NCBI RefSeq assembly: GCF_003130405.1
Contig: NZ_QEAS01000005.1
Coordinates: forward strand, 219,318-283,317
Direction of reading: 5' to 3'
DNA length: 64,000 bases
Source of the DNA: Pararcticibacter amylolyticus
GTDB lineage: Bacteria > Bacteroidota > Bacteroidia > Sphingobacteriales > Sphingobacteriaceae
The notes under the pieces are model-generated. The model did not search any database, was not told the origin of the DNA, and was given only the letters and a program-made list of their open reading frames with translations. A program made the translations under genes and the position numbers. Each line of letters starts with the position of its first letter. The stretch's first letter is position 1. Of this stretch, positions 6,163-24,330 are shown one piece after another.

Positions 6163-6193
6163 GTTTATCAAGCATTTAATTGTCGTTTTATAA

Positions 6194-7993
6194 CTACTTC
6201 CATCCCTGATTTTGCAAAAGCTGGCTATACTTCCGCACTTCTGAATTAGGAATGGGACCGTAATACATGTAATTCTGATAAGAACGTGTTTCAACGTTGA
6301 ATGGGACGAAAACGCCAGCCTTCAGATCAAGTCCCCGGGTGGTTTCATTGAGCTTGGCTATGTCCACTTTCCAGCGGCGAAGGTCCCAGAAGCGAAAACT
6401 CTCAAAGCATAATTCGAGACGACGTTCGTTCCGGATCAACTCCCGCATTTTATCTTTATCTGTTTTAATTTCCTCCAGATATGGATCATTGTTTAGCCCT
6501 AAAGCCCTTTTACGAATAGCTTTAATGATATCATAAGCTGAATAGCCATGACTGCCCTGACCGGTTGGCCCCCACGCTTCGTTGGCTGCTTCTGCATAGT
6601 CAAGGTATATTTCTGTGTATCGGATCCGTGGAGTGTAATGTGTTTTACCGCTTAACGAAATCGGGTTGCGGTTAACATCCATCCTAAGCCGTTTTCTCAT
6701 ATAATACCCTGTACGTGTAGAGGTTGACCTTGCGTTAATTCCGTCATCGGTTCCCGATCCGCTGCCAGTCAGGATTGTTGAATTTGATACACCAGCCGCA
6801 CTTCCATTATAAATAATATACTTTGCGAGTCTGGGGTCTCTTTGAGAAAATGGATTGGATGAATTGTAGGTTGAATTTGGATGATCAATAGGAAAACCAT
6901 TAGCCATTGGAAAGGCCTCTACGAGGTTTTGTGTCGGATTCATCCTGCCGTTACCAAAGAGGGAAGGGGGGAAGTTTTCTGCTTCGATATCTCCGTTGTT
7001 TGTTTGAATATTTTCTCTCCAGATAATTTCGGGCGGGTTAGCACCGTTACTTATTCCGTCAACCTCATTGGAATTGAAATTAGTATAGTACACGAGACCA
7101 CTTGCCGGTAAGGCGTTAGCACCTCCCTTGTAGTCAATTACGGCTGCAGCATAGTTAGCCGCATCTGCCCATGTCACGGTGTTGGAACTGTGCTGGAAAG
7201 CAGGACTTGCTGCTAGTAATGCCAGTCTTGTGCGGAATGATTTCGCAATTAATCCATTGAACAACTGCCTGCCCGGTTCGCCCATCACCCGGTTATATGT
7301 TTCTGCGTTTTGTGTAATTGTCTTGAATCGATCCGGGATCTGAGACGCATTTACGTTATTATATTCTATGGGCAGGTAAGCTTCAGCACTGTCCAGATCC
7401 TTATAAATTTGTTTCACACAGGCGTCGAAATTAGCACGGGGTATATTGAATTCCGACTTGATAGTCTGATATTCAGTGATAATAGGTACTCCCATTAGCT
7501 GCCCATCGGGGGTGAATCCACCGTGATTACGTAACAGAAAATACATATAGAGACCGCGCAGGCCGAAAGCTTCGCCTCTCATTCTCATGTTGAAAAGCTT
7601 TGCAGCTTCCGGATCTTCCGCCCATTTTACTTTTCCCGATTGTTCAAGGAAAAGATTAATATACTGAATCGCTTCGTATGAACGGTTCCATAACGAAGCA
7701 GGATTGTTGGATGCAGTCCAGGAGCCCGTGGTCATTTGCAGCCAGCCGTCACTGAACTGATTAGTTACAGCATCATCTGTCGCGTAATCTGAATTATCAT
7801 AATAGCCCGGAATAGTTCTGTATGCATTGACCACAACGCCCTGTGCATAGTTCACGTCAGTATACATCTGCTCAATGTTCTTCAGATTCTCAGGTTCGGG
7901 ATCCAGGATATCCTTGCAGCCTGTAAAAACGAGAACTGCCAATCCAATAAATATTATATTAAATTTCATATAATTACTCATTACTTTGTTCAT
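6194..7993 (-). CDS. xusD: SusD/RagB-family lipoprotein (XusD-type), copy 1
   Basis: A 599-residue SusD-like surface glycan-binding lipoprotein with lipobox VFTGC (C26 from the first ATG, C18 if ATG 9 is used), TPR-like helices and the C-terminal RNERRLELCFESFRFWDLRRW signature typical of SusD/RagB. The start shares a TAATG with the stop of the upstream SusC-like gene, indicating translational coupling; ATGs at residues 5 and 9 are alternatives. SusD proteins cap the SusC channel and deliver oligosaccharides. This one pairs with the shorter SusC-like protein at 7993-10860 and is paralogous to 27952-29706. Confidence 0.93.
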   Translation of the reverse strand: MNKVMSNYMKFNIIFIGLAVLVFTGCKDILDPEPENLKNIEQMYTDVNYAQGVVVNAYRTIPGYYDNSDYATDDAVTNQFSDGWLQMTTGSWTASNNPASLWNRSYEAIQYINLFLEQSGKVKWAEDPEAAKLFNMRMRGEAFGLRGLYMYFLLRNHGGFTPDGQLMGVPIITEYQTIKSEFNIPRANFDACVKQIYKDLDSAEAYLPIEYNNVNASQIPDRFKTITQNAETYNRVMGEPGRQLFNGLIAKSFRTRLALLAASPAFQHSSNTVTWADAANYAAAVIDYKGGANALPASGLVYYTNFNSNEVDGISNGANPPEIIWRENIQTNNGDIEAENFPPSLFGNGRMNPTQNLVEAFPMANGFPIDHPNSTYNSSNPFSQRDPRLAKYIIYNGSAAGVSNSTILTGSGSGTDDGINARSTSTRTGYYMRKRLRMDVNRNPISLSGKTHYTPRIRYTEIYLDYAEAANEAWGPTGQGSHGYSAYDIIKAIRKRALGLNNDPYLEEIKTDKDKMRELIRNERRLELCFESFRFWDLRRWKVDIAKLNETTRGLDLKAGVFVPFNVETRSYQNYMYYGPIPNSEVRKYSQLLQNQGWK

Positions 7994-10860
7994 TAAAAAG
8001 AAGTCCTTATACCCAGATTAAAGAACCGGGTCTGTGGTTCCAGCCCTATATTCGTTTCCATTAGTTCGCGCTCGCGGGATATAACGAGGAGGTTATCACC
8101 CTGGACGTACAAGCTGAGTCCATGGATAAACGAATTTTTAAAAACATCCTGGTTAAAGTCGTAAGTAAGTTGTACCCTGTTCAGATCAAAGCGGTTTGTT
8201 TTATACATCCAGAAAGTGGAATTCCGGAAGTTGTTGCTGCTGTTTGTTGTCAGGCGCGGATAGGTTGCGTTACTCTTCGTGGATTCCGTCCAGCGGCCCC
8301 ACACTACATCTGAGTATTTTCCGGTGCCACCTACCCAGTAATAAGAACTGTTTTTAAAGCCGATCGCTCCCCTGTTACCCGAACCTAAAGCAAAAAATGT
8401 AAGGTTCTTCCATTTAACAGTAAGGTTTAACCCATAGGTAAATGGCGACGCTGCCCAGCCTGTATGTCCCAGATCTATCTGGTCCCTGCTGTCAATCAAA
8501 CCATCGTTGTTGATATCTTTGTACTTGATATCACCTGGCTTTACCGGACCGAATGTTTGTCTTGCATGATTGTCTATTTCAGCCTGGTTTTCGAAAAGGC
8601 CCTCGCTGATATATCCATAATATGCATCTAATGATCTTCCTGTCCTTGCAAGATAACTCTCCTCCGGAAGCTCATCCCTGCGTAACACCTTAGACGAATA
8701 GATCATTCCAACAAGCCCCAAAGAGTATTGCACTTGAGCAATGTTTTTGTTCAGGTTAACAGAAAAATCGAGACCAGACCGTTTGTCCTTATTGAAGTTA
8801 ATCCATGGCCGGAAATCACCTGAACCGGAAAAATAAGCAGGATATATGCTAACACCCCTGGCTAGTAGTCCGTCTGTAGTCTGAGAAAAGTAATTGACAT
8901 CAAGGCTTACCAGGTTTTTCCAGAGAGCGCCTTCCATGCCAACTCTGAATTCTTTACGCTTGACGAATGTGAGGTCCGGATTCTCTGCTTGTCCGGAGAG
9001 TGTTGTTCTCCCGCCTGCTACGCCGTCACGCCACTGATACCATCCCCCGAAGGTTGCAGTGTTGCTATAATAGCCCTGATATAGATAATGATCCACAGGT
9101 TCGCTGGTATTGTTGGCCCTGTAGCCAGTAATGTCTATGTCCTGATTAATAGATGCATAAGATGCCGTAATTTTCAGGTTGTCGACGAACGAAACGGTGT
9201 TTTTGAAAAATTCTTCGTCACTAACACGCCAGCCCAGTGTCACCGCTGGGGATAATGCGTTCCGCTTTCCTGGAGGAAGTTTAGCAGAGTGTATAAGTGC
9301 AGCAGAAAAATCGGCATAGTATTTTTTTTGATAATTGTAACCAGCCTGGAATCCGAGATTTGTATTTTTGAATGGCTGATAATCACTTCCTCCCTCGTTG
9401 TCGGGATCACTCGAGAATTGTCTCTTGTACCACCAACCCAGTAAAGCAGCCGTCACATTATGCTTTCCCGAAAAGTTGCGTTCATAGTTGAATTGGGATC
9501 TGACAGACATTGTCTGCGTGTAAGTAGACCTTCCTATAAATTCATTGGTTGAGTTCTTGTCCTCTCCAAATGGTTCCAGCGCCGTGATTAAATCCTGACC
9601 ATTGACAGTAGCCCAGGTAGGTCTGTATGTTCTGTAGGGAAGTTGATAGGCTTCTGAAAATACGGAGGTATAATCCATGCTGTTAGCTGTTGTAAATGAT
9701 AATCCTTCCAAAACCGATCTCAAATCAGCGGTTGCGTTCAAATTATACATGAATGTCCGGTTCCTGGTCTTAATATAGCCGGATGCCAGCATATCAGAAA
9801 AAACGTTAGTTGGATTAGTGCTTTGGCCGCCGAGAAGATATTTCCCGTCGATTATATGATTGCTCGTTTTAACAATGGCCTGTAGCTGGCTATTTTCAGG
9901 ATCGAGCATGCTGATAGGGATAAACGGAGAAAAACGGTTGAAATTGGGTGCTATTGTTGCTGCAGATGACCAAAAGCTGCCTCTTCCTGCGTAATTATTA
10001 GAAATAACCGCCACAGCATCTGCGGAGGCTTTCAGCCATTTAGCAATGTCCATATCCACGTTCCCCCGTACATTAAAAGCAAAATCATTGTTTTTCTTTT
10101 GTTCTCCGTACTTCATCAGGCTATTATTGTATGCCAATCCCAGGTTGGTATAATAGCGTGCATTTTTATCTCCGCCGGATATTTCTGTTGTAATGTCAGA
10201 TCTTGAATATGCTTTTTTAAGATACTCGGAACTGAAAAAATCGATATCCGGGTATCTGTAAGGGTTGGTGCCTGACCGCGTATTATCAATCGCCTCCTGA
10301 GTATACCCGGCACCACTTGTTGCTATTCCGTCATTCGTTAATGCTTCGTTATATAAGGTCATATAGTCAGCCGCGTTAAGATAATTGGGGTATGATTTTG
10401 GGACAAAAAGTCCCGTATTAGCCCTTACATCAATCGTCAGAGGTTTTATGCTTCCTCTTTTTGTAGTGATAAGTATGGCTCCCCTGGAAGCGCTGCTTCC
10501 ATACAATATTACCGAACTTGCCCCCTTCAGTACAGTGATGGATTCTACTTCAACCATGCGGATATCAGAGGCCCGGCGTGGTATTCCGTCTACCAGTATT
10601 AAAGGGGCTTGTCCCCAGATATTTCCGGTATAACCGCCTACAAAGCTTTGAAGGTTATCAAGGCTATACGTCCCATAACTCTTCTTTAACAGATCAGGAA
10701 CATTTACAATCGATATAGTACCGGTCAGATCCTCTCTGGCTATAGTACGAAAGGCAACATTTACAAGACTGTCTTGTTCTATCTGTGCGTGTAATCCTGT
10801 AAGTCCTGTAAAGAATGCTGCAATCAGAACAAAGCAGGTTTTTATATTTCTTTTCTTCAT
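7993..10860 (-). CDS. xusC: SusC-like TonB-dependent transporter lacking the carboxypeptidase-like domain, copy 1
   Basis: A 955-residue outer-membrane beta-barrel transporter: signal peptide 1-25, a short about 40-residue lead-in, plug domain (PLILVDGIPR, VEVESITVLKGASS, YGSSASRGAILITTKRG) and the SusC barrel ending in an aromatic strand (LGIRTSF). Unlike usual SusC proteins it has no N-terminal CarboxypepD-regulatory-like sandwich before the plug. The lead-in (VAFRTIAREDLTG...NLQSFVGGYTGNIWG) matches its paralogue at 29737-32667. It is the second SusC of a tandem SusC/D pair, as in the xus (xylan) cluster of Prevotella and Bacteroides. Substrate: xylo- or arabinoxylo-oligosaccharides by context. 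Confidence 0.93.
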   Translation of the reverse strand: MKKRNIKTCFVLIAAFFTGLTGLHAQIEQDSLVNVAFRTIAREDLTGTISIVNVPDLLKKSYGTYSLDNLQSFVGGYTGNIWGQAPLILVDGIPRRASDIRMVEVESITVLKGASSVILYGSSASRGAILITTKRGSIKPLTIDVRANTGLFVPKSYPNYLNAADYMTLYNEALTNDGIATSGAGYTQEAIDNTRSGTNPYRYPDIDFFSSEYLKKAYSRSDITTEISGGDKNARYYTNLGLAYNNSLMKYGEQKKNNDFAFNVRGNVDMDIAKWLKASADAVAVISNNYAGRGSFWSSAATIAPNFNRFSPFIPISMLDPENSQLQAIVKTSNHIIDGKYLLGGQSTNPTNVFSDMLASGYIKTRNRTFMYNLNATADLRSVLEGLSFTTANSMDYTSVFSEAYQLPYRTYRPTWATVNGQDLITALEPFGEDKNSTNEFIGRSTYTQTMSVRSQFNYERNFSGKHNVTAALLGWWYKRQFSSDPDNEGGSDYQPFKNTNLGFQAGYNYQKKYYADFSAALIHSAKLPPGKRNALSPAVTLGWRVSDEEFFKNTVSFVDNLKITASYASINQDIDITGYRANNTSEPVDHYLYQGYYSNTATFGGWYQWRDGVAGGRTTLSGQAENPDLTFVKRKEFRVGMEGALWKNLVSLDVNYFSQTTDGLLARGVSIYPAYFSGSGDFRPWINFNKDKRSGLDFSVNLNKNIAQVQYSLGLVGMIYSSKVLRRDELPEESYLARTGRSLDAYYGYISEGLFENQAEIDNHARQTFGPVKPGDIKYKDINNDGLIDSRDQIDLGHTGWAASPFTYGLNLTVKWKNLTFFALGSGNRGAIGFKNSSYYWVGGTGKYSDVVWGRWTESTKSNATYPRLTTNSSNNFRNSTFWMYKTNRFDLNRVQLTYDFNQDVFKNSFIHGLSLYVQGDNLLVISRERELMETNIGLEPQTRFFNLGIRTSF

Positions 10861-10876
10861 TTTGTTGACATATTGG

Positions 10877-12763
10877 TTACCAGCCCGGGTTTTGCTTAAA
10901 TTCCTTATACATATTCACGTCTTGTGTCCGAAACGGAAACCAGTAGTGCCGGTCTCCCAGCTGCCTTTCGAATAAAACTACTTCTCTAAGATTACGGACC
11001 TTTGCATTTACAGGGTCGGCATATACCTGGGCATTTGGAGTTGCGCGATCGAATTCAATAGCTGTCTTTAGAGTGTAAGGACGCTGAGTCAAAAGCAGCC
11101 ACCGGCGCAGGTCATTAAAACGATGTCCCTCAAAAGAGAGCTCAACCGCCCGTTCGCGACGAAGCTCCTGTAGAAAATCTGCGGTTGAACCGAGGTATTT
11201 TTCCGCAACCCCGGTAACTCCTGCGCGGTTACGGATTTTGTTTACTGCATCTGCTGCTGATAAATTGTAGCCAGGCGCCATACTTTGAGGACTCCCATAT
11301 CCCACTGCTGTGGCTTCAGCATATAATAAATACACGTCAGCCAGCCGCATTAAACTCATTACACAAGTGTTGTTATCTCTGTATCCATCAAACTCATTGG
11401 AAAGTTTGGATATATACTTGGCGAGAAGATACCCTGTCCACACCTTCTTATTGTCATCTGCTGTCCTGAATAGTCCGTTAGTAAAAAGGCTGGCGTATTG
11501 TCTGTACTCATTGTTGCCGACACTCTGAGCACGTACAACAGTTTTTTCTCCGTCGAACAGGATATCATTGTAGAAACGGGGATCGCGGTTTTTCCATGGA
11601 TATTCCGGATCGTAACCCGATTCTGGATCTTTCGTTGCAAGGTCTTTAATCGGAAGGCCGTTAGCCATCCCATAATAATTAACATAATTAGCGGTAGGAT
11701 AGACCTTGATTCCGGTTTGATTAATAGTGTTTGGGCGGTAATCATTTACCTGGTTATAACGCCAGCGACCGCTTGCTTCGGTCAAATTTTCCAAAAGAAT
11801 AGATTCCTTAAGCCCTGGTAGCTTACCCCCTGCATTCCACGTATAGAATACTTCTCTATACTGCGAAAATGATGCTAACTCATAACGTTTGGTTGATTCT
11901 ATTACATTAAGCGCCTCAGCAAAAACATCAGCTGCCTTTTTACAATATCCGGGATTGTAGTCACTGCTCCCTGTAGATTCCCTGTTCATCAAAGGACTTC
12001 CAGCCCATAAGTAATTTTTGCCAAGAAAAGCCAGGGCCATGATCCTATTGATCCGCTGGCTGTTCCTTCCTGTAGTTTGCTTTCCTGCTTGTGTCTGATC
12101 CCAGTCAACAGGAAGAAGTTCTGCAGCCTTTTGTAAGTCTTCTGCAACTTTATCTGCCGTTTGCTGATAGTTTAGCCGTGAAAGCTTAATGACCTGGTCG
12201 GTAGGCAGAACCTGGTCAATATAAGGTAGACCTCCCCAGTATTCCATTAAAACAAAATGGAAATATCCCCTGAAAAAATATAGCTGGCCGGCAATAAGAT
12301 TTTTTTCTTCCTGGGTTGCATCTGTAAGCTTATCGAGATTTGCAAGTCCCACGTTGGCCTTACGAATGCCGTACCATGAGAGCTGCCAAAGCCGGCCTTT
12401 TTTGAAGCGATCTGTATTAGAAGGATCTCCTCCGTCTGCCTTGAAGAAATTATAATAAGCACTCTCCCATGCCCGGTAGTCGCCCTGGTCAATAGCATAA
12501 GCTATTACCCTGGTTTCGCCCACCTGCCAAAATTCTTCCTCTCCCAGATTCCAGCTACTATGGTATTCATTCCCGGAGAGCATTGGAATACAATTATACA
12601 ATTCCTCAGTGAATCCCTGGAAGTTCCTGAAGTTCTTATAAGGATCCGTTTCGGCGATATCAGCTAGTGGAGATCTATCTAAATATTTCTTACATGAACT
12701 AAGTGTCAGGGTCGCCAGTAAAATGGCGAGCGGAACTAATATTTTTTTAAAGAGCTTCTTCAT
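10877..12763 (-). CDS. xusB: SusD/RagB-family lipoprotein (XusB-type), copy 1
   Basis: A 628-residue SusD-like lipoprotein (lipobox LSSC, C24) with SusD helices and a C-terminal LRRERAVELSFEGHRFNDLRRW signature. It follows the first SusC by 10 bases and precedes the second SusC by 16, so it lies in one operon. It binds glycan at the cell surface and acts as the lid of the XusA-type SusC. The conserved early segment NFRNFQGFTEELYNCI is shared with its paralogue at 32696-34594, which also has the same length within four residues. Confidence 0.93.
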   Translation of the reverse strand: MKKLFKKILVPLAILLATLTLSSCKKYLDRSPLADIAETDPYKNFRNFQGFTEELYNCIPMLSGNEYHSSWNLGEEEFWQVGETRVIAYAIDQGDYRAWESAYYNFFKADGGDPSNTDRFKKGRLWQLSWYGIRKANVGLANLDKLTDATQEEKNLIAGQLYFFRGYFHFVLMEYWGGLPYIDQVLPTDQVIKLSRLNYQQTADKVAEDLQKAAELLPVDWDQTQAGKQTTGRNSQRINRIMALAFLGKNYLWAGSPLMNRESTGSSDYNPGYCKKAADVFAEALNVIESTKRYELASFSQYREVFYTWNAGGKLPGLKESILLENLTEASGRWRYNQVNDYRPNTINQTGIKVYPTANYVNYYGMANGLPIKDLATKDPESGYDPEYPWKNRDPRFYNDILFDGEKTVVRAQSVGNNEYRQYASLFTNGLFRTADDNKKVWTGYLLAKYISKLSNEFDGYRDNNTCVMSLMRLADVYLLYAEATAVGYGSPQSMAPGYNLSAADAVNKIRNRAGVTGVAEKYLGSTADFLQELRRERAVELSFEGHRFNDLRRWLLLTQRPYTLKTAIEFDRATPNAQVYADPVNAKVRNLREVVLFERQLGDRHYWFPFRTQDVNMYKEFKQNPGW

Positions 12764-12773
12764 CCTTAGTAAT

Positions 12774-15700
12774 TTATAAGGTTATATCAATACCTAAATT
12801 GTAACGTCTCATAGTAGGGTAGGACCCTCCGGAGCCGAATGGGTCTGATCCAAAATTGGCCTCCCGGTCATCCGGCATCTTCGTCCACAACCACAAATTG
12901 TTCCCGTTTAAATAAACTCTGCAGTTCTTTAAACCAAGTTTATTTATATGTTTAGCTGGTAAATTATAGGCTATTTCTGCATTTTTTAAACGCCAGTAGG
13001 AGCCATCGTACAGGTATCTCGTTCCTGAAGCTCCGTCAGGATCGTTCGTTGTGAACCGTGACAGCGGAACTTCACCGCCCCCGTTTTCTAAATTAAAGAA
13101 AGGCCTTTCTACAAAAACGACATTGCTTTTCGCCTGAAAGTTAGGGAACGAAACCGGACGAGTTACGTTGTTTACTCCATAAAACTGCACAAACAAGCTT
13201 AGCCGCTTCCATTCAAAGCCAAGGCTTGCGTTATAGGTGTTCTGTGGAGTAGGAGTGTAACCGTATGGTGCTGAATCATTGACGTCAATAACCCCGTCTG
13301 CGTTAAAGTCAATAATATTATAATCTCCCGGAAGCTTGTTCTGGTTGTTTGAGGAACGGGTGGTACTTCCGAAAACATCATCCCAGCTTTCAAGGAATCC
13401 ATGATCAACATGAGTTCTTGTTTGGCCGATTGCGTACCCAGCTTGCTTCCGGTATGCAGGAGTGAGCTCAGGATCATCCCTGAAATTTGTGATATTAACA
13501 GCATGAGTTAAACTGGTATTGGCCCAAATGCGAATGTTTTTAAACGAATGGTTTAGTTTGAGCTCGAACTCGTAGCCCTTACTTGTTACTTCTCCAAGGT
13601 TTACTGTCGGAGCAAGACCACCAAAGCCATAAAAAGATGGAATAGCGCGGTCACTTCCGCCGATTATAATATCGGTCCTTTTGTCCTTGAAAATGTCTAC
13701 GGATCCCGAGATCTTTCCCTTCAGAAAACCATAATCAATACCTAAGTTTCGTTTTTCAACATTCTCCCAGGCGAGATTTGGATTCCCCAAAGCGGTTATA
13801 CGATAAAACGTGTATGGTGTATTCGCTGGAATGTCGCCCATTTGAGTGTTGCCCGAATAAGCATAAGCGTCTCTGAAAGGCCAGCGCGGAAGCCACGACG
13901 GGATACCATCATCTCCAATTTTTCCCCAGGAACCGCGAAGCTTCAATATGTCCACTAAGCCCAGGCTTTTTAGAAAATTTTCGTTACTGATCATCCATCC
14001 CGCTGACAGGGAGGGGAAAAATTTGAAGCGCTTTTCTGGCCCGAATTTTTCAGAACCATTATAAGCGCCGTTTGATTCAAAGAAGTACTTTAATTTATAG
14101 TTATAAGTTGCTCTGAATACCCAATCCTCTCTGAATGACGGGAACACGCCGCCTCTGGCCTGCCTCTGTCGTTGAAAAAGCCCCATTGCCGTGAGATCAT
14201 GGTCTCCAAAAGTCCGTGCATAATTTAACTGAAACTGATAATTGGTGTTCCGGTAGGTGAGGTCTTTATTTACCTCACCATTTGCAACTCCCCAGCTAAT
14301 TCTTTCGTTAAAATCGAACTGTGTGCCGGTATCTATTTTCTGCTCATAGGTGACCAGACCTGTTACAGGATTGATATATTTGCGTTGAGCTGGATTATTC
14401 CGGTCGTCAATTCCGCGCCTTCTTTCCTGGAATGTATTGTCCATAGAAAGACTCCCTCTAAAACTGAGACCTTTGGTAAGTACATCCAACTGTTGCTGGA
14501 GTATAAAATCTGTGGTCAACTGTGTGTTTGTTCGTTTCTCTAAACCCGAATAAGCAAGCCAGAATGCTGCGTTAGGCTGATCCTGGGCTGATGTTGCATA
14601 ATATCCATATGTTCCATCAGAATACCTTGCACGGAAGATGTCAGGAGATGTCCGGTAGGCCGAAGACCAGTATGCCACATCATTGTCTCCCATCTCATAA
14701 GGAACTTTCCGGACGCCGTTTGAACCAAACAACTTGGTAGAAAATTTAGTCGTTTTGGTGAGATTGAAATCCAGATTGCTTCTTATGTTAATACGGTTAT
14801 ATCCGAAGCCAGCTTCATAGCCACGGCCGTTTGCCATTGTTTTGAACAAATCACCTTCCTGGGTAAAGTCAAGACCGGCGAAATAATTGACAAATTTAGA
14901 TCCCCCAGATATATTAGCGGCAGTATTGTAAGACATTGCCCTATCTTTAAACAATTCCTTCACCCAATCAACATTGGGATACCTGTCCCAGTCCTCCACA
15001 CTCGTTGGGTTCCGGTATTTGTCTATTCTTTCCTTTGGTGTATACGCCGACCATGCATTAAGATCAGCCAGTGCTTCCCTTTCGAGGACCAGGTTCTTAA
15101 TCATCAGTGCATCATAGGAGTCGTATTTTTCGGGAAGCTTTGATGCTTCTTTTACTGTCATGTTAGAGCGTATCTGAATCTGTGCTTTTCCCGTTACCCC
15201 CCGTTTAGTGGTAACAAGGATAACTCCGTTTGCACCTCTAACACCGTAAACTGCGGTCGCGGAAGCATCTTTCAGTACAGAAACGCTTTCAACAGAAGAA
15301 ATATCGAGAGAGCCGAGTGGCCGTTCTATTCCATCCACCAGGATTAGTGGAGAACTATTATTCCACGAACTCTGACCCCGAATGAGAATCTGCGGGTCTT
15401 CATTGCCTGGCATACCGTTGGTGGATGACGTAACCACTCCCGGAAGGTTTCCGGTTAACGCCATTCCCAGATTGGTAACCCCTCCGGAACGTTCGAGCAC
15501 TTTTCCTGTTGTCTGCGTGATAGATCCAACAACGCTTTCCCTTTTTTGCTGTCCATACCCCACAACAACGACTTCTTTGAGAAGCTTTACATCGTCTTCG
15601 AGAACGATTCGGAGGGTAGTGTTGCCTGCAACTTTTACTTCTTTAGTTACCATACTAATAAAGGAGACGTGCAGGGTCACATTGTTATTCGGAACGATCA

Positions 15701-15908
15701 GGGTGAATTTTCCGGCCTGGTCTGTCATGGTACGCCTCGTATTGTCTCCTTTAACACCTACTGTGGCACCAGCTATTGGCTGGCCGTTTGTGTCTGTAAC
15801 AGTTCCTCTCAGTGTTATTCTGTTCTGTGCGTTAATGGTAAAAACACTGAGAAGCAGGAGCAAAATCAGATACGTAATCTTTTGAAATTGCTTTTTTTCA
15901 TTTTTCAT
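12774..15908 (-). CDS. xusA: SusC-like TonB-dependent transporter (XusA-type), copy 1
   Basis: A 1044-residue classical SusC: signal peptide 1-27, CarboxypepD-regulatory-like sandwich (about 30-112, starting RGTVTDTNGQPIAGATV), a TonB-box-like KEVVVVGYGQQK, plug (PLILVDGIERP, VESVSVLKDASATAVYGVRGANGVILVTTKRG) and a barrel ending in LGIDITL. It is the first gene of xus operon 1. The regulon promoter is at 16388-16452, giving a leader of about 480 nt, the longest here. It is paralogous to 34604-37786. It imports large xylan oligosaccharides using TonB energy; substrate is inferred from the tandem SusC/D-XusE architecture. Confidence 0.95.
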   Translation of the reverse strand: MKNEKKQFQKITYLILLLLLSVFTINAQNRITLRGTVTDTNGQPIAGATVGVKGDNTRRTMTDQAGKFTLIVPNNNVTLHVSFISMVTKEVKVAGNTTLRIVLEDDVKLLKEVVVVGYGQQKRESVVGSITQTTGKVLERSGGVTNLGMALTGNLPGVVTSSTNGMPGNEDPQILIRGQSSWNNSSPLILVDGIERPLGSLDISSVESVSVLKDASATAVYGVRGANGVILVTTKRGVTGKAQIQIRSNMTVKEASKLPEKYDSYDALMIKNLVLEREALADLNAWSAYTPKERIDKYRNPTSVEDWDRYPNVDWVKELFKDRAMSYNTAANISGGSKFVNYFAGLDFTQEGDLFKTMANGRGYEAGFGYNRINIRSNLDFNLTKTTKFSTKLFGSNGVRKVPYEMGDNDVAYWSSAYRTSPDIFRARYSDGTYGYYATSAQDQPNAAFWLAYSGLEKRTNTQLTTDFILQQQLDVLTKGLSFRGSLSMDNTFQERRRGIDDRNNPAQRKYINPVTGLVTYEQKIDTGTQFDFNERISWGVANGEVNKDLTYRNTNYQFQLNYARTFGDHDLTAMGLFQRQRQARGGVFPSFREDWVFRATYNYKLKYFFESNGAYNGSEKFGPEKRFKFFPSLSAGWMISNENFLKSLGLVDILKLRGSWGKIGDDGIPSWLPRWPFRDAYAYSGNTQMGDIPANTPYTFYRITALGNPNLAWENVEKRNLGIDYGFLKGKISGSVDIFKDKRTDIIIGGSDRAIPSFYGFGGLAPTVNLGEVTSKGYEFELKLNHSFKNIRIWANTSLTHAVNITNFRDDPELTPAYRKQAGYAIGQTRTHVDHGFLESWDDVFGSTTRSSNNQNKLPGDYNIIDFNADGVIDVNDSAPYGYTPTPQNTYNASLGFEWKRLSLFVQFYGVNNVTRPVSFPNFQAKSNVVFVERPFFNLENGGGEVPLSRFTTNDPDGASGTRYLYDGSYWRLKNAEIAYNLPAKHINKLGLKNCRVYLNGNNLWLWTKMPDDREANFGSDPFGSGGSYPTMRRYNLGIDITL

Positions 15909-16771: not shown

Positions 16772-17107
16772 TTACCAACGCAGGCCGGCGCCTCCAGTAA
16801 CGTTGCCGTAAGCGATATAATGCAATGTCACCGTGTAGAATATTCCGGCATGTACGGAAGAATATTGAGCCTGATTAGTTGTTGTAAAACTATCAATAAG
16901 TTGACTCGTCTGATTGTTTAATATTGTACAGCTTCCCCAACCTTGATACCAGTAGCAGAAAAAAGATATCTCTGCCGCTCCATTAATATTTATCGTTTTT
17001 GTAACATCTGTGGGCCCAGAGGCCGTGACACCGTCAGAATAGTTGTATGCGAAACTGTTTGCAGATGCCGAAAAAATAACAAGGATAATTATTAATAACT
17101 TTTTCAT
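16772..17107 (-). CDS. Small secreted protein, paralogue A
   Basis: A 111-residue exported protein: Sec signal peptide 1-20 (ending SFA), mature part of about 90 residues with two Cys and a C-terminus GGAGLRW. It aligns with the 130-residue protein at 17325-17717: both have SFAY at the cleavage site, an ININ segment followed by EI-F-C, a LIDSF/LIDYF segment, an AG-Y stretch and a final LRW. That makes them a local duplicate pair. No domain I recognise; the pattern suggests a small beta-sandwich. A hairpin at 17233-17260 separates it from its paralogue, so it probably has its own promoter. It is not preceded by the regulon element. Confidence 0.68.
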   Translation of the reverse strand: MKKLLIIILVIFSASANSFAYNYSDGVTASGPTDVTKTININGAAEISFFCYWYQGWGSCTILNNQTSQLIDSFTTTNQAQYSSVHAGIFYTVTLHYIAYGNVTGGAGLRW

Positions 17108-17232
17108 TTTTTAGGAGTTAAAGATTTAAAAATTGATCTGGTTCTAATTTAATGTGCTTTATTGTAGTAAAGTTCGTACTGTGTAGTAAGTCAGCACTCT
17201 ATTTGCACGAGCGCATATTTACTGGTAAATAG

Positions 17233-17260
17233 AGCCGCCTCAGTTTCGATTGAGACGGCT
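17233..17260 (-). terminator. Hairpin between the two small secreted protein genes
   Basis: A 12-bp stem (17233-17244 with 17249-17260) with a TTCG loop and imperfect pairs at two positions. It lies about 65 nt past the stop at 17325. The T-tract (TTTTA) follows on the plus side; on the minus strand it is only TCTATTT. Confidence 0.6.
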
Positions 17261-17324
17261 TTTATACGCAACCGAAAATCATTTTGTTAAAGAGAATAAT
17301 TGGATAACACTATGAACTTTGTTG

Positions 17325-17717
17325 TTACCATCGTAACTCTGCTAGCCCTATTGCATTTGAGGCGCAGGAAATTTTTAGTTCCAGTGAGTACCAATAACCT
17401 GTAAAGGCTGCGTTTTTTCCGGCACTAAAAGGCGCATAAGGTATTCTTTCAAAATTGAAATAGTCTATCAGTGTTCCTCCATGTTTTAAATACGCGTAGG
17501 CACTGGAGGTTGAGGAAACACCGAGGGCGCCGCTGGTAAAATTACAGCGGAATTCAATCTCAGTATAGGAGTTTATGTTGATGATTTCAGTGTCTTCTGT
17601 TGGTGATCCACTGTTTGAGTCAGATGACGCTGCAAAAATTCCGACACCGTTTTCGTAAGCGAAGCTACTTGCGGCCCCACCCAAAAGCATAAAGAGTAAC
17701 AAGACGATTTTTTTCAT
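17325..17717 (-). CDS. Small secreted protein, paralogue B
   Basis: A 130-residue exported protein with signal peptide 1-20 (GGAASSFA) and two Cys in the mature part (EFRCNF, KISCAS). It ends LAELRW, matching GAGLRW of the 111-residue neighbour. Compared with that neighbour it has an extra Ser/Asp-rich segment after the signal peptide. The function is unknown. Position: between the STN-receptor operon and xus operon 1, on the same strand as both, with a 333-base gap upstream. Extracellular or surface-associated location is inferred from the signal peptide only. Confidence 0.68.
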   Translation of the reverse strand: MKKIVLLLFMLLGGAASSFAYENGVGIFAASSDSNSGSPTEDTEIININSYTEIEFRCNFTSGALGVSSTSSAYAYLKHGGTLIDYFNFERIPYAPFSAGKNAAFTGYWYSLELKISCASNAIGLAELRW

Positions 17718-18050: not shown

Positions 18051-20411
18051 TTATTTCGTTATATTTATAGTGAACTTCGCTGAGCCAGCTTTTCCATCAT
18101 CTGAAAGAGCTTGGACATCAACGGTGTACTTTCCGTCCATGTCAGATGTGAAAAAACTCAACTCCGATTTTCCTTGTTCGTCAGTGCGTTGATCCGCACT
18201 CCAGAATAATGTAGTTCTGTAGTCGGGAGTACGAATAAAAGTTGAGCTGTCTCCATTGTACATTGGAGAGTAGAATTCTCTTTTTTGCTGAAAACCACTA
18301 AAGTCCATTACAAATGCTTTTTTCGGCAATTGATAGTTAGCCAGATCTCCATTATATGAAAAGAAGCTGGCGATACCGGAAAAGATATTGCGGCCGTACA
18401 AATAGCTATTGGCCACTATTTCCAGGCGTTGTATTTTCAATGGATCTATCCTTGTAATAGCATTGCCTTCATCAAATAAGGGTATGCCGTCGATCAAAAT
18501 CAGGGGTGTGCTGTCGTGAAAAGTTCCTGCTTCTGTGTTGTAGATCCGCATATGGTAAGCATCCTTCTTTGAAGAGATCAGAACTTCAGGTACATATTCC
18601 CGCAAGACTTCTTCCATGGTGGTGAAACGTACATAATCGTCAAGAATGTAGACCTTATCCGGATTTACGTAAAACGGTGTGTGTCTGTTCTCAGCGGCTG
18701 GTTGTCCGTTGGGGGGCTTCGAATGATAAATGTTACCGATCTGCATGGCAATACTCTGAGCGAGCAGTGCAACCGTATCTTCCCTGAGATTTAATTCCGG
18801 GACGCTTCGGTCTGCGTAGTTTTCTGAATATGGCTGGTAGATTTCGATTTCAGCCAGACTGTCGGTACGGGAGTCTGTTTGTGCTATGAGTTCATGTGTA
18901 CGAAGGAGGTTCTTTGTGAAGAAGCTTACCTCACCGTTTGAGTTTGAGGTAGCTGTATAAAAATGAGGATGCTGGCCAGGGACTGATAAAAAAGCCTTCC
19001 TTTCAGGTAGATATGTATGTGAAACCTGATTGGTGATACGCCCACGGATGATGTGCCCTTCGATCTCCGGGAGGTATACGTGTTCCGGAACGGTCTGTTG
19101 CAATATGTCTTCCCATTTGAATCGGCGCCATCCGTGGGTAAGCATCACCAGATCTGTTTCTGCAGATGTGGCGTGATTGAAGTACCAGTCAGCGTTGTCT
19201 ATTTTCCCTTTGAGTTCAGACGTGAGCCATAGACTTGTTTCTATATTCTCATTTGAAGGCGAGGAGGTGCCGGATTTGTAAATAGATACGGAATAATTCC
19301 CTTTGACCGGCTGATTATTAAGCATCTGACCGATTTTTAATTGGACTTTCTCCCGCGTACGGTAACTGTCCTTATCAGCCGCTACCTCAATATGTAATAG
19401 ATTTTCCGGCTTTTTAAAATATAAGCGTTCACAAAGAGCTTTGCCGTCACTGCTAAATAAGGTAAAGTGAGATATACCATCTCCCAACATCTTCACCGGA
19501 ACATGAAACCCTTTTTGAATATCAGCTGCATCAAGCGAATCGAGAAACACGATGCGTTGCCCTGAGTGGACGAAGAGCACAAATTTTTTAATTACCGGAG
19601 TATTACTTTGTACAGAAAGTGATATGGAGTTTCCATCTTCTTTGGCAAGCATGACCACTCCTTTTTCAAAAACCCGTGGCAGTGAAGTACTGAAAACCGT
19701 TCCTGAAGCTGACTTGGCCCACACCCTATAAGTTTCTCCGCTTTTTGGCCTGAAATTGAAACTGCCCAAACCCGACTCCAGGGAGTGAAATTTTACGATG
19801 GTGTCGTTGGTGCTGTTAATTACTGCTGCCTGGAAATTGAAACCTTTCCCCCTTTGATCAGTTGCTTTGAAAGCAATATTACTGGAAAGGTTTGTAACAA
19901 GGTTTCCGCCTTCAGGAAAGAACTGGATAGCATAAGACTCTTTTTCCTGAGTTGCCGGAGGGGCCTCTTCTCTTAGTGTATTGTAAACAGGTATATCTTT
20001 ATGAAAGTAAAAGTCTGCACTGAAGTTTTTCATCCAATTGGTATAGCTTCTCAGTGTATAATATCCCGATGGCAAATCAGCAGGAATGTATAACGCTCCG
20101 TTCCCCCTGCCATGATTTAGTGCAATGGTTGATTGCATTATTGGCTTTTTGTTGCTGTTTATCAGTTCTATGTAGGCGACGCTGCTTGTTTTCGCCGGAA
20201 GGTTAGTATATGCTTCTGCATAATATATGCTAAACCAGATGGTTTCGCCAGCCAGGTAAGAGTTTCTGTCTGTATGCACGAAAATCTTTTCCTGGAAGCT
20301 ATTCTGCAGGTAAACGCTAAATTTAGTTTTGATCTCTTTGAGATCCTGGGCAAAACACCAGCTTGCTGGTGAGAGGTTCAATAAAAGGATAAAAACAGTA
20401 ATATTTCTCAT
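18051..20411 (-). CDS. MG2-like secreted protein with a barrel-less TonB plug domain
   Basis: A 786-residue exported protein (signal peptide 1-22). The N-terminal part carries the segment EKIFVHTDRNSYLAGETIWF, typical of macroglobulin MG2-like sandwiches in Bacteroidota, followed by further Ig-like sandwiches. Around 600-700 it has a plug-like block (TPLILIDGIPLF, IDPLKIQRLEIVANSYLYG, GIASFFSYNGD), but no outer-membrane barrel follows: the last about 80 residues form another sandwich (SELSFFTSDMDGKYTV...). Such proteins are common next to TonB receptors, with no settled function; binding or scaffolding at the receptor is a guess. It starts 8 bases after the DUF4249 gene stop and is last in the four-gene operon. 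Confidence 0.8.
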   Translation of the reverse strand: MRNITVFILLLNLSPASWCFAQDLKEIKTKFSVYLQNSFQEKIFVHTDRNSYLAGETIWFSIYYAEAYTNLPAKTSSVAYIELINSNKKPIMQSTIALNHGRGNGALYIPADLPSGYYTLRSYTNWMKNFSADFYFHKDIPVYNTLREEAPPATQEKESYAIQFFPEGGNLVTNLSSNIAFKATDQRGKGFNFQAAVINSTNDTIVKFHSLESGLGSFNFRPKSGETYRVWAKSASGTVFSTSLPRVFEKGVVMLAKEDGNSISLSVQSNTPVIKKFVLFVHSGQRIVFLDSLDAADIQKGFHVPVKMLGDGISHFTLFSSDGKALCERLYFKKPENLLHIEVAADKDSYRTREKVQLKIGQMLNNQPVKGNYSVSIYKSGTSSPSNENIETSLWLTSELKGKIDNADWYFNHATSAETDLVMLTHGWRRFKWEDILQQTVPEHVYLPEIEGHIIRGRITNQVSHTYLPERKAFLSVPGQHPHFYTATSNSNGEVSFFTKNLLRTHELIAQTDSRTDSLAEIEIYQPYSENYADRSVPELNLREDTVALLAQSIAMQIGNIYHSKPPNGQPAAENRHTPFYVNPDKVYILDDYVRFTTMEEVLREYVPEVLISSKKDAYHMRIYNTEAGTFHDSTPLILIDGIPLFDEGNAITRIDPLKIQRLEIVANSYLYGRNIFSGIASFFSYNGDLANYQLPKKAFVMDFSGFQQKREFYSPMYNGDSSTFIRTPDYRTTLFWSADQRTDEQGKSELSFFTSDMDGKYTVDVQALSDDGKAGSAKFTINITK

Positions 20412-20419
20412 ATTGAAGT

Positions 20420-21571
20420 TTAATCAGGCCAATAAGCCGGTTTTATGTTCGAACCCCGAAGCCGGCAATCTATACAGTCTTCACGCCCCATGGTGTAATT
20501 GATAAAAATACCTCCATTGTCAACTGGCCGTCTGTTTTCAGAAATGATCAGATTACGTGCATTCAGGTAGTAAATCAGGCTGTCCCTGGAAGAGGTGAAT
20601 GGTTCACATTGCCGACTGTACATCCATTCAATCCCTACGCCGGTTTTGGGTTTATCTTTATAGCTGATAAAGATTCTTTTTTGTGTAGTCGTTCCTGCAC
20701 TAACCCAGCCAATTACCTGCTCTTCCGGATCAGAGATGCAGGTAATGTTTCCGCCGAGTTCAGAGGGCAGCGCGTCAAAAATTGTCCCGATCTGTTCTGT
20801 ATTCTTCTTTATGTTTTCCAGGTACTGATAGGCATCGCGGGTCAGTCCATACTGTCTCACCAGGATACTATACATATAGGCCACTTTGTCTGAATTCCCC
20901 AAAACATGATTGATGGGCACCATTGTCAGTTTGTCCTCTGAGAGACGTTCAGAACTTCCGATAAGAATGGCAGAAGAATTATTTGACGCCCAGCAATACT
21001 CAATATTAATATTCTGATCCCGGGGGACGACCTGTCCGTTTTTGTATTCAAAAGCAGAAGGAAAGGCTGAGTGGATTTCCCATGTTTCGGTGAAGTTCCA
21101 ATTGTAGTACCTGGTTTGATTGCTGTTGTCGTGAGTATTGACATAGATCCGGAATCCATTATTCTCTATCCGGAAATTAATATTGTCAATCTCCGGGCTT
21201 TTTTTGTTCTCAAGATATCCGGTCAAGTAGGTTTTTCCTCCAGTGACGATCTTAAGACGGTACCGTTCAGTCAGACTGAGGTTCTGTGTGGCTAGTTCAC
21301 ATGATCCGTTGACGTCGGATCTTCCGTTTAAAATGGTTCCTTTGTCTCCTTCTATAACTACTTCTGCATTTTTTTCAGGAATAAGGGACTGCCAGTCTTT
21401 CAGATCTCCTGTACGGCTCAATTGGATAGTCGTTATGCCTCCGATCTGAATAAATCCTTCTGTTACCAGCAGATTCTTATATTTAGCTTCAACATTGGGT
21501 ACGAACGGATCCTTGCATGAGCAAACCGCCGCAAAGAAGCCGGATAGAACCAGGATGAGTGTTTTTTTCAT
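20420..21571 (-). CDS. DUF4249 lipoprotein
   Basis: A 383-residue lipoprotein (signal ending AAVCSC, modified Cys 19, then KDPFVPNVEAKYKNLLVTEGFI). The DUF4249 pattern is visible: a beta-rich N-terminal sandwich (LVTEGFIQIGGITTIQLSRT) and a C-terminal Cys-containing tail (EDCIDC, PAYWPD). DUF4249 proteins sit beside STN-type TonB receptors in Bacteroidota and are presumed outer-membrane partners of them. The start codon overlaps the receptor stop by 4 bases (ATGA), so translation is coupled. Ligand unknown. Confidence 0.87.
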   Translation of the reverse strand: MKKTLILVLSGFFAAVCSCKDPFVPNVEAKYKNLLVTEGFIQIGGITTIQLSRTGDLKDWQSLIPEKNAEVVIEGDKGTILNGRSDVNGSCELATQNLSLTERYRLKIVTGGKTYLTGYLENKKSPEIDNINFRIENNGFRIYVNTHDNSNQTRYYNWNFTETWEIHSAFPSAFEYKNGQVVPRDQNINIEYCWASNNSSAILIGSSERLSEDKLTMVPINHVLGNSDKVAYMYSILVRQYGLTRDAYQYLENIKKNTEQIGTIFDALPSELGGNITCISDPEEQVIGWVSAGTTTQKRIFISYKDKPKTGVGIEWMYSRQCEPFTSSRDSLIYYLNARNLIISENRRPVDNGGIFINYTMGREDCIDCRLRGSNIKPAYWPD

Positions 21572-24330
21572 TTGATTCGGATATTATAGTTGACAAATGG
21601 TATAGCTGTACCGAAAATAGATAGCTGATATCCATTGATGATCTTATTTTCACTCGCAAAGAACGTAGAGAAGATATTTTTCCTTCCTGTGACATTGTAT
21701 ATCCCTAAAGTCCAGGAGTTATGGGCGAGTTGCTTTTTTTTATGATTCCCCAGTATATTCAGAGATATATCGGAACGGAAATAATCGGGTATCCTGTACT
21801 GGTTTCGTTCCGAGTACAGTAACCTCTGGCCTCCCTGGTAGAAGTACTTCCCAACCGGAAGAGTAATAGGACGACCCGTATTATATGTCAGGTTAAGGGA
21901 AAAACTTACGCGGTGGGAAAAGCGATAATTTCCTATAAACGTAAAATCGTGCGGTTTATCATAATTTGCGGGGTAATAATTGCCTCCATTTATCGAGTTG
22001 TTCCCGGTCGTATCGTTAGTTTTAAGGAAGGTTCGGGAATAGGTATAGCTTAACCATCCGTTCAGTTTTCCCGAAAGTTTCTTAATCATGAACTCTGCTC
22101 CGTATGCTTTGCCCTGAGTTGGCAATACGTCTTGCTCTATCTTATGATTAAGGATGAGAAGGGCTCCGCTCTTATAGTCCAGAAAATCATCTATCCGTTT
22201 ATAATAACCTTCAACAGAGGCTTCTATGGTATTGGATTTGAAATTTCTGTAAAAACCAAGAGATACCTGACGCCCGCGTTGCGGAGCGATGTTCCAGTCA
22301 CTCAATTTCCATACATCGGTAGGGGAGATGGAGGTAGTGTTTGACAGCATATGAATATATTGTCGTTGTGTGTTGTAACCTGCCTTAACCGAAAAATCAG
22401 GACTCAGCGTAAATCTTGCTCCCAACCTGTATTCCGGTCCATGGTATGTTTTGATGATATCCCCCTTTTTATAGCTATTGGTCGATTCTATACCTGCGTC
22501 ATTTCTGACCAGTCCATCTGCATATTTATTTACAATTGCTGGCCCCAGATAGCTGAAGAGGGAGTAGCGAAGGCCTGCATTGATGGTAATTGCTTCCGTA
22601 AGGTTATACTGTTGTTCCGCATATACGGCGCTCTCGAGAGCTTGTTCTTTCTGTAATATGTCTGGTATAACCAGTGAACGTTCATTATATGGTTCTAAAG
22701 AGCCTGGTTTATTTTTATAATAAATAGTTCCGGCGCCAAAATCAATATTCCACTTTGCACTGGGGAAATAACTGAAGTTTGTTTTTAAGTGAGTTTGTTC
22801 TATACTGAATTTTAAACGGTAATCAACCTCGTCATTGTAATTGCTGTAATTATCGTAGGTGTACTGGTCGTACCCGCCCGACAAAACTCCATATAACTTA
22901 TTGTTAAATGTATGCTTCCAGCTTAAAGCCATGTTTCTGTTATTGTACTGAAAGGTGGTATCTGTTGCCAGATTAGATTTATCACTGCTCAGATAGGCCG
23001 TTGCATAAAAATTGTTTTTCTCATTATGCTGGTGGCTGACCTGAAGATTCACATCATAGAAACTTGCTTTTGCATTGTGATACCCTGCATTATCCGGCAA
23101 AAGCTTCATAATCCAGTTTGAATACGTGGTTCTGCCTCCTAAAATGAAAGAAGTCCGGTCTTTGATCAGAGGGCCTTCTATATTTAGCCGGCTGGTGATC
23201 AAACCTATTCCCGCTGTTCCGGTAAACTGTTTTTTATTCCCTTCCCGGCCTGTGAGTTCAAGTACAGAAGACAGTCTTCCGCCATATTTAGCTGGAATGC
23301 TGCTTTTATATAGTCTGACGTCTCTGATTACTTCTGGATTAAAAGCCGAAAAAAAACCAAAAAAGTGGGATGGATTATAAACGGTAGTATTATCGAAAAG
23401 GATAAGATTTTGATCTGTTGATCCTCCTCTGACATTAAATCCGGTACTGGATTCGCCTACTGATTTTACTCCCGGCAACGTGAGAATGACCCTTAGAATG
23501 TCAGCTTCTCCGAAAACAGTCGGCACCTCTTTGATTGTTTTGATGTCAAGTTTCTCAATACCCATCGCAGTACGTCTGATATTGGAAGTTTTATCTGTCG
23601 TTATAACCACTTCCTTTAAGGAAAAAGGTTCGTCCTGCATAGCAATGTCTAGTTTTCCATCACCATTTAACTGGATTATACGGCGAGTATCTTTTAATCC
23701 AACTGATTTAACACTTAATTCATGCCGTCCCTTAGGCAGGGTGAGTGAATAAAAGCCGAAAGCATCTGTTAATGTGCCAATCCGGGGTTTACCTGTAAAA
23801 ATTGCTACACCGCTTACGGGTTCTCCTGTACCTGCATTCTTGATATATCCTGCTATCGTTGCGCTGGTTTTTGTCTGATTAAAGTTGTTTCCAATAGTAT
23901 ATAGCTTGTGTTCTATTGTTGCCAGGGTCGAAACTGGCTTTGACTGGGGATTTGTTGTAGGCAGTGGGCTGCCGGACATCTTTTCTGGCATACGTTTTCC
24001 TGTGAACTGAGAGGGGAGGAGCGTTTTTACCGGTGTGTCCCTGGTTACGAAAATAACATGCCCTAAAAGAGCATAACGATAGCGCGTTCCAGAGAATACG
24101 CTGTCAAGAATACCTGTTACTGAAGTGTTTTTCAAAGTCACGGAAATGATCAAACTATCCTCAACGAATGCTTCGTAGTAAAAATGGCAGGCAGTCTGGG
24201 ATTCGATCTGTCTTACCAATTCCCGAAACGGTTGATGGCTGAGACTGACATTGATCGTGTTATTTTCCTGTCCTCTTAATCCTGATATAAACAGGATAAG
24301 AATGGTGATTAGAATATAAAATCTCTTCAT
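21568..24330 (-). CDS. TonB-dependent receptor with STN and carboxypeptidase-like domains
   Basis: A 920-residue outer-membrane receptor: signal peptide 1-20, STN domain (about 25-95, VSLSHQPFRELVRQIE...), linker, CarboxypepD-regulatory-like sandwich (about 160-240), plug (about 245-360, with FNVRGGSTDQNLILFD and YGGRLSSVLEL) and a barrel ending in VNYNIRIK. The plug and barrel are of the receptor type, not SusC. STN domains usually talk to FecR-type anti-sigma factors, yet no FecI/FecR gene lies in the window. It overlaps both neighbours by 4 bases. The ligand is unknown; nothing ties it directly to xylan apart from its position between two xus cassettes. Confidence 0.92.
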   Translation of the reverse strand: MKRFYILITILILFISGLRGQENNTINVSLSHQPFRELVRQIESQTACHFYYEAFVEDSLIISVTLKNTSVTGILDSVFSGTRYRYALLGHVIFVTRDTPVKTLLPSQFTGKRMPEKMSGSPLPTTNPQSKPVSTLATIEHKLYTIGNNFNQTKTSATIAGYIKNAGTGEPVSGVAIFTGKPRIGTLTDAFGFYSLTLPKGRHELSVKSVGLKDTRRIIQLNGDGKLDIAMQDEPFSLKEVVITTDKTSNIRRTAMGIEKLDIKTIKEVPTVFGEADILRVILTLPGVKSVGESSTGFNVRGGSTDQNLILFDNTTVYNPSHFFGFFSAFNPEVIRDVRLYKSSIPAKYGGRLSSVLELTGREGNKKQFTGTAGIGLITSRLNIEGPLIKDRTSFILGGRTTYSNWIMKLLPDNAGYHNAKASFYDVNLQVSHQHNEKNNFYATAYLSSDKSNLATDTTFQYNNRNMALSWKHTFNNKLYGVLSGGYDQYTYDNYSNYNDEVDYRLKFSIEQTHLKTNFSYFPSAKWNIDFGAGTIYYKNKPGSLEPYNERSLVIPDILQKEQALESAVYAEQQYNLTEAITINAGLRYSLFSYLGPAIVNKYADGLVRNDAGIESTNSYKKGDIIKTYHGPEYRLGARFTLSPDFSVKAGYNTQRQYIHMLSNTTSISPTDVWKLSDWNIAPQRGRQVSLGFYRNFKSNTIEASVEGYYKRIDDFLDYKSGALLILNHKIEQDVLPTQGKAYGAEFMIKKLSGKLNGWLSYTYSRTFLKTNDTTGNNSINGGNYYPANYDKPHDFTFIGNYRFSHRVSFSLNLTYNTGRPITLPVGKYFYQGGQRLLYSERNQYRIPDYFRSDISLNILGNHKKKQLAHNSWTLGIYNVTGRKNIFSTFFASENKIINGYQLSIFGTAIPFVNYNIRIK

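Follow-up and report, generated by a model that had tools for sequence, protein, structure and literature searches.

What do three short genes with signal-peptide-like starts contribute to a SusC/SusD locus of the xylan type in Pararcticibacter amylolyticus? We have analysed a stretch of 64,000 nucleotides of this genome, here called the window, in which all three genes lie on the minus strand. P0002 (17325-17717; 130 aa, ending ELRW), a small protein of type B, has a signal peptide at about residues 1-20 and a mature part of 110 aa. P0001 (16772-17107; 111 aa, ending GLRW) is a divergent type B paralogue, and P0003 (2754-3167; 137 aa, ending VDWY), of type A, is encoded directly after the gene of a parvulin-like lipoprotein. 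P0001 and P0002 have in common the features listed in a preliminary description of the locus, namely SFAY at the likely cleavage site, an ININ...EI.F.C block, LIDxF and the terminal LRW. Export of the small proteins is predicted from their signal-peptide-like starts. The cleavage site reads ...SFAY or AFAG, with no lipobox cysteine. The view that no known family covers them was confirmed, in that P0001-P0003 gave nothing above the cut-off in Pfam or NCBIfam at E values up to 10, the C-terminal sorting domain of type IX secretion included, and no match to carbohydrate-binding module (CBM) families in Pfam. The sequences of the small family matched no solved structure, and P0002 matched nothing in the plasmid and phage collections. 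Sixteen small proteins, tabulated together, have 0-6 lysines and arginines and 12-23 aromatic residues, one of which forms the C-terminus or lies close to it; prolines are few (1-6). In P0001-P0003 cysteines occur only at 51 and 60, at 58 and 118, and at 53.

Each gene had been credited with its own hairpin. This holds for P0002 (minus strand, about 17233-17260; z -3.97 for the stretch 17215-17324) and for P0003, which is followed by a perfect 15-bp hairpin (minus strand, 2672-2704; z -4.37 for the stretch 2640-2753), but not for P0001 (z -0.54). Between 15800 and 18200 no minus-strand terminator was reported by a consensus scan, and scans for sigma-70 and TTTG/TANNTTTG promoters stayed at chance level. 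A perfect 12-nt inverted repeat flanks P0001 (16739-16750 and 17135-17146) and may be due to chance or may mark an invertible or mobile unit. Directly upstream of P0002 lies, as judged by eye, a separate TonB-receptor cassette (18051-24330).

P0001 and P0002 can be aligned over their full length, with 28-33% identity. Considering that signal peptides inflate such matches, the test was redone on the mature parts, whose local score of 77 was reached by none of 5000 shuffles (mean 29.0, sd 5.4). When mature P0002 alone was searched against the six genomes of the genus (E up to 0.1), P0001 was not recovered, and the two are therefore a distant pair. The local scores of P0003 against P0001 and P0002 were not above those of shuffles (3981 and 2051 of 5000 reached them), and thus a third relative was unproven at first; the global alignment of P0003 with P0002 was weakly above shuffles (156 of 5000). 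This lack of a score for P0003 by itself is what speaks for spurious reading frames or chance look-alikes.

A two-row profile of mature P0001 and P0002, searched in 399 genomes of the same family, found four clear homologues (E 3.3e-19 to 3.6e-14), the remaining list starting at 0.0026. Their hosts include Pedobacter sp. MC2016-24 (G339), Sphingobacterium faecium (G174) and S. alkalisoli (G353). Immediately before each of the four lies a second small gene, which is of type A and related to P0003, and the profiles of type A and of the P0002-like type B match each other with a profile-profile probability of 98.8 (E 1e-16, signal peptides included). P0003 is thus linked to the pair, as had been suggested for the 137-residue protein, through intermediate sequences and not by a direct match. 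With a combined profile, 13 genes were found in 7 of the 399 genomes: three in the window, a gene of either type in each of four genomes, and a single gene in G194 and in G248. Matches of the same profile at E up to 0.01 occurred in 64 of the 399 genomes but fell below 1e-20 in just 7, and 14 of 15 weaker loci that were examined look like signal-peptide matches to other proteins. An initial protein search of 60 relatives (E up to 1) returned 27 rows in 21 genomes; among 16 loci examined from it, one of them P0001, none was convincing outside the window, the matches being traced to signal peptides, other large proteins or wrong frames. Among 395 genomes of the class, the mature profile matched convincingly only in the own genome, and two other genomes gave E values of 8.4e-4 and 0.0068 in frames of 738 and 378 residues.

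The small-protein family is under purifying selection. Among Sphingobacterium orthologues dN/dS is 0.09-0.27 at dS up to about 1.6; between S. faecium and the genome G209 it is 0.25 for type A and 0.11 for type B, and for the type B gene of S. alkalisoli it is 0.12 against S. faecium and 0.09 against G209. Cross-genus pairs with dS near 1.5 gave 0.56, many pairs being saturated. P0001-P0003 and their relatives are real genes. The preliminary description had proposed a profile search and had taken a lack of homologues as the sign of spurious frames; homologues exist elsewhere, P0001 and P0002 are homologous on their mature parts, and the duplicated family stands. With 13 genes in seven genomes, a fixed gene order and the dN/dS values of the Sphingobacterium orthologues, the reading as spurious frames is refuted for the family as a whole, and we give it practically no credence.

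Polysaccharide-utilization loci are usually read as sets of transporters, binding lipoproteins and enzymes. On the minus strand, and assigned by Pfam unless stated, the locus in the window runs from SusC-like transporter 1 (12774-15908; open reading frame and SusC-like sequence, by eye) through SusD-like protein 1 (10877-12763), SusC-like TonB-dependent transporter 2 (7993-10860; plug domain), SusD-like protein 2 (6194-7993), a DUF5627/BT_3987-like-N lipoprotein (5128-6162; scanned as 5131-6168, start codon set by eye), a parvulin-like (PPIC-type) lipoprotein of 543 aa (3243-4874; PF13145 Rotamase_2, E 3.1e-17) and P0003 to a GH43 glycoside hydrolase with a CBM6 (1054-2454). P0001 and P0002 share this orientation and form the upstream end of the locus, with a distance of 864 bp between P0001 and SusC-like transporter 1. 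In the relatives, where Pfam was applied to ten proteins and the remaining gene orders were read by eye, the order is SusC, SusD, DUF5627-type lipoprotein, PPIC-type lipoprotein, type A and, where present, type B; the window follows it down to P0003, after which the GH43-CBM6 gene comes. Sphingobacterium has a further lipoprotein between the DUF5627-type and PPIC-type genes (GH10 in S. alkalisoli) and a SASA-type acetylesterase after the small genes (tested in S. alkalisoli), and S. faecium has a GH10 gene further on. The proposed link of the small proteins to xylan-type SusC/SusD loci is seen in the gene orders of both the window and its relatives.

The parvulin neighbour, which also occurs outside polysaccharide loci, was absent from that earlier reading. 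In all seven genomes with the small family a type A gene adjoins the gene of the parvulin-like lipoprotein, at a gap of 76 bp in the case of P0003. A parvulin profile searched in 341 genomes of the family (E up to 1e-15) found 11 genes in 10 genomes. Seven of them belong to the genomes with the small family, the gene of G194 being split into two rows; the other four, in G153, G031, G300 and as a second copy in the own genome, were found blind to small proteins. All four have a small exported reading frame on the same strand at 48-76 bp, downstream in three and upstream in one, whose product of 117-129 aa starts with a signal peptide and ends in an aromatic residue. Across the ten intact pairs the gap is 48-78 bp, and the small gene lies downstream in nine and upstream in G300. 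The second pair of the own genome is located about 25 kb before the window (8131-10247 of locus L117), in another SusC/SusD-type locus with glycoside-hydrolase-like genes as judged by eye. The parvulin gene of G194 is split between two frames (8712-10290 of L094), by a real event or an assembly error; it is intact in the close relative G248, and the small gene is kept in both genomes.

For comparison, PF13145 was searched in seven of these genomes; it found 13 SurA/PpiD-type genes outside the parvulin family, and none of the 13 has a small exported neighbour. A neighbour was counted if it passed a home-made rule for signal peptides, was encoded on the same strand, had 85-165 aa and lay within 400 bp. 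At 13 loci such a neighbour was seen for all ten intact parvulin genes and for 13 of 122 other genes of at least 200 aa; 9 of these 13 adjoin a family small gene or a parvulin partner, 3 adjoin two unrelated reading frames (150 and 92 aa), and 1 adjoins a fragment of the broken G194 parvulin. At L115 a 153-aa frame follows the small gene (8265-8726) and looks by eye like the detached end of an upstream FG-GAP/ASPIC protein of 1125 aa. The counts are not independent, because the seven genomes share recent ancestry, and accordingly the four cases found blind carry most weight. The module of parvulin and small protein is rare: the parvulin was found only in the own genome in a class sample of 355 genomes, 37 Sphingobacterium genomes yielded no new gene of this family, and the plasmid collection gave no match for it.

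This coupling bears on whether the small proteins are accessory xylan-binders of the SusC/SusD locus, with the parvulin as another locus member that helps SusC or other outer-membrane proteins to fold and is adjacent only incidentally. On the one hand, SusC/SusD or glycoside-hydrolase loci contain or adjoin 9 of the 11 parvulin genes (partly by eye), and the predicted fold described below resembles CBMs. On the other hand, the pairs in G153 and G300 stand outside such loci, no SusC/SusD being seen by eye in the stretch fetched, and every parvulin found blind has its small partner. Accordingly, the small protein appears to be tied to the parvulin and not to xylan, and we consider the reading as accessory xylan-binders with an incidental parvulin neighbour unlikely. 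Near-obligate pairing would also be expected if the small protein were a subunit, lid or cofactor that stays with the parvulin lipoprotein in a periplasmic complex as its partner or regulator, instead of a client that departs, and Pfam and NCBIfam recognised no secretion tag beyond the signal peptide. However, the window has further copies of the small gene away from the parvulin gene, and the small proteins diverge faster than expected of a subunit: the G153 parvulin is 47% identical to that of the window, whereas its small protein is unrecognisable by profile. Such a permanent partnership is in our view quite unlikely.

The four extra partners are encoded at 5389-5772 of L114, 7845-8198 of L115, 5151-5525 of L116 and 9858-10247 of L117. 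Against the family, hhalign gave them probabilities of 0.1-1.0, with scores reached by 3 to 38 of 60 shuffles; for the best two of 20 pairwise global alignments, 3 and 4 of 1000 shuffles scored as high, and the best HMM E value, in a 4-sequence search, was 0.0013. They resemble the family in length and in composition, with 0-6 lysines and arginines, 16-21 aromatic residues, 35-41% Gly, Ser, Thr and Asn, and an aromatic end. Membership of these partners in one superfamily with the small proteins is probable but unproven, and they are not recognisable homologues by sequence.

The parvulin-like protein itself has a PPIC-type domain (PF13145, 64 bits against a cut-off of 27), and nine of the ten intact members of its family carry a signal peptide and a lipobox-like cysteine. 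Catalytic parvulins are marked by histidine motifs of the active site. These motifs are absent in nine of the ten members, the tenth having a single match at residue 205, and are present in 11 of the 13 SurA/PpiD-type controls, which fits a holdase more than an isomerase. Among solved SurA-like proteins the parvulin profile matched cell-binding factor 2 (E 2.3e-14), also called PEB4, a SurA-like chaperone, and HP_0175 (E 9.2e-6). A second parvulin-like domain (alignment columns about 412-512) is present in the proteins of the window, G153, G031 and G248 and in the own second copy, and is missing in four of the nine aligned, those of Pedobacter, S. faecium, S. alkalisoli and G300.

The structures predicted by AlphaFold2 from nine rows are all beta for both P0002 (pLDDT 90.2, pTM 0.82) and the type A protein of S. 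faecium (pLDDT 91.1, pTM 0.83). Both models have jelly rolls and beta-sandwiches as structural neighbours. The top match of P0002 was Bd1399 of Bdellovibrio (Z 9.3, rmsd 2.3, 103 aligned; type A: Z 8.2), described as a cryptic secreted protein (PMC10792529). Further matches were the C-terminal part of Tk-SP (Z 9.0 and 8.3 for P0002 and type A), a GOLD domain (Z 8.6 and 7.8), Fbs1 in its sugar-binding domain (P0002: Z 8.5, rmsd 2.5, 101 aligned; type A: Z 7.3) and CBM16 (P0002: Z 7.5, rmsd 3.0, 99 aligned; type A: Z 6.3), with which many unrelated jelly rolls tie. Foldseek with the type A model listed CBM4, CBM6 and CBM36 among its matches. As to Ena-type fibre subunits, Foldseek gave only Ena3A/Ena2A, at TMq 0.20-0.27. 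At similar Z there are matches to jelly rolls with quite different roles, among them TNF, GOLD, capsid and toxin domains. Since rows within 1 Z unit count as tied and Z values of 7 to 8 are common, the assignment of both models to all-beta jelly rolls is credible as a fold class, and no function follows from it. The aromatic C-terminus could also recall an outer-membrane barrel; we set this reading aside, since a protein of about 100 residues is too short for it and the two models resemble jelly rolls. The predicted fold is compatible with the adhesion or binding role that had been put forward, and the ideas of a family and of binding are broadly supported. An exported effector against rival microbes, equipped with its own folding factor, might likewise be small and divergent and might resemble receptor-binding jelly rolls, as these proteins do. 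However, no obvious immunity-like gene is seen by eye beside the pairs, most pairs are embedded in xylan loci, and Pfam and NCBIfam offer no family match, so that we regard an antagonistic role as very improbable.

Where a folding helper and a small exported protein are encoded side by side in several settings, the simplest reading is that of a dedicated chaperone and its client. We propose, with a probability of roughly 0.5, a two-part module of a periplasmic parvulin-like lipoprotein chaperone and one or more adjacent small exported jelly-roll clients, which would probably bind glycans or surfaces. Family, signal-peptide-like starts, gene coupling and selection are the observations behind it; from the coupling we infer the relation of chaperone and client, and the final location and the ligand are putative. 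The small protein would cross the inner membrane via its signal peptide, would be held and folded in the periplasm by the lipoprotein, and would then do its work on the outer membrane or outside it, where it would most likely bind glycans or surfaces as a stand-alone protein. Such a binder is suggested by the predicted jelly roll, rich in aromatic residues and poor in lysine and arginine, and by its occurrence in xylan loci. In P. amylolyticus and related strains this module would be built into xylan-utilization loci, and the small-protein gene has been duplicated, with P0001 and P0002 at the upstream end of the locus and P0003 beside the parvulin gene. Counting against the module, P0001 and P0002 are not adjacent to the parvulin gene in the window, the module is rare, the four extra partners are not recognisable by sequence, the few prolines of the small proteins give no obvious need for prolyl isomerization, and the structural matches point to no one function. 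More tentatively, we envisage that across the Pedobacter/Sphingobacterium family, in and outside polysaccharide-utilization loci, a degenerate parvulin lipoprotein might serve a fast-diverging, locus-specific jelly roll, so that the binder changes with its target while the cassette travels together. The literature searched, with most subscription papers outside its coverage, gave no description of a parvulin paired with a polysaccharide-utilization or xylan locus. If the proposed module is correct, xylan capture in soil Bacteroidota would have a further component, a dedicated folding factor paired with a small exported protein that is not lipidated. The two would offer a tractable chaperone-client pair of one gene each, the client being only about 100 residues long and its structure predicted at high confidence.

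Compared with known systems, the small proteins share their loci with SusE/SusF-like and DUF5627 surface glycan-binding proteins. The surface glycan-binding proteins of SusC/SusD loci are lipoproteins, whereas the small proteins have no lipobox cysteine, and the slot after SusD, where such a surface protein is usually encoded, is in this locus taken by the DUF5627 lipoprotein. They resemble stand-alone CBMs of the CBM4, 6, 16 and 36 kinds and the Fbs1 domain in their predicted beta jelly roll and, through the xylan loci, in context, but differ in having no CBM sequence match and only about 100 residues. With Bd1399 and DUF4360, the best structural match of P0002, they would share the character of a small exported beta-sandwich; however, P0001-P0003 have no Pfam sequence match to them, and the two conserved disulphides described there (PMC10792529) have no counterpart in their cysteine pattern. 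The partner resembles SurA, PrsA and PEB4 in its PPIC-type domain or domains, signal peptide and lipobox-like cysteine (nine of ten), but its histidine motifs are degenerate, its second domain is missing in four of nine, and, unlike these chaperones, it is linked to a small exported protein.
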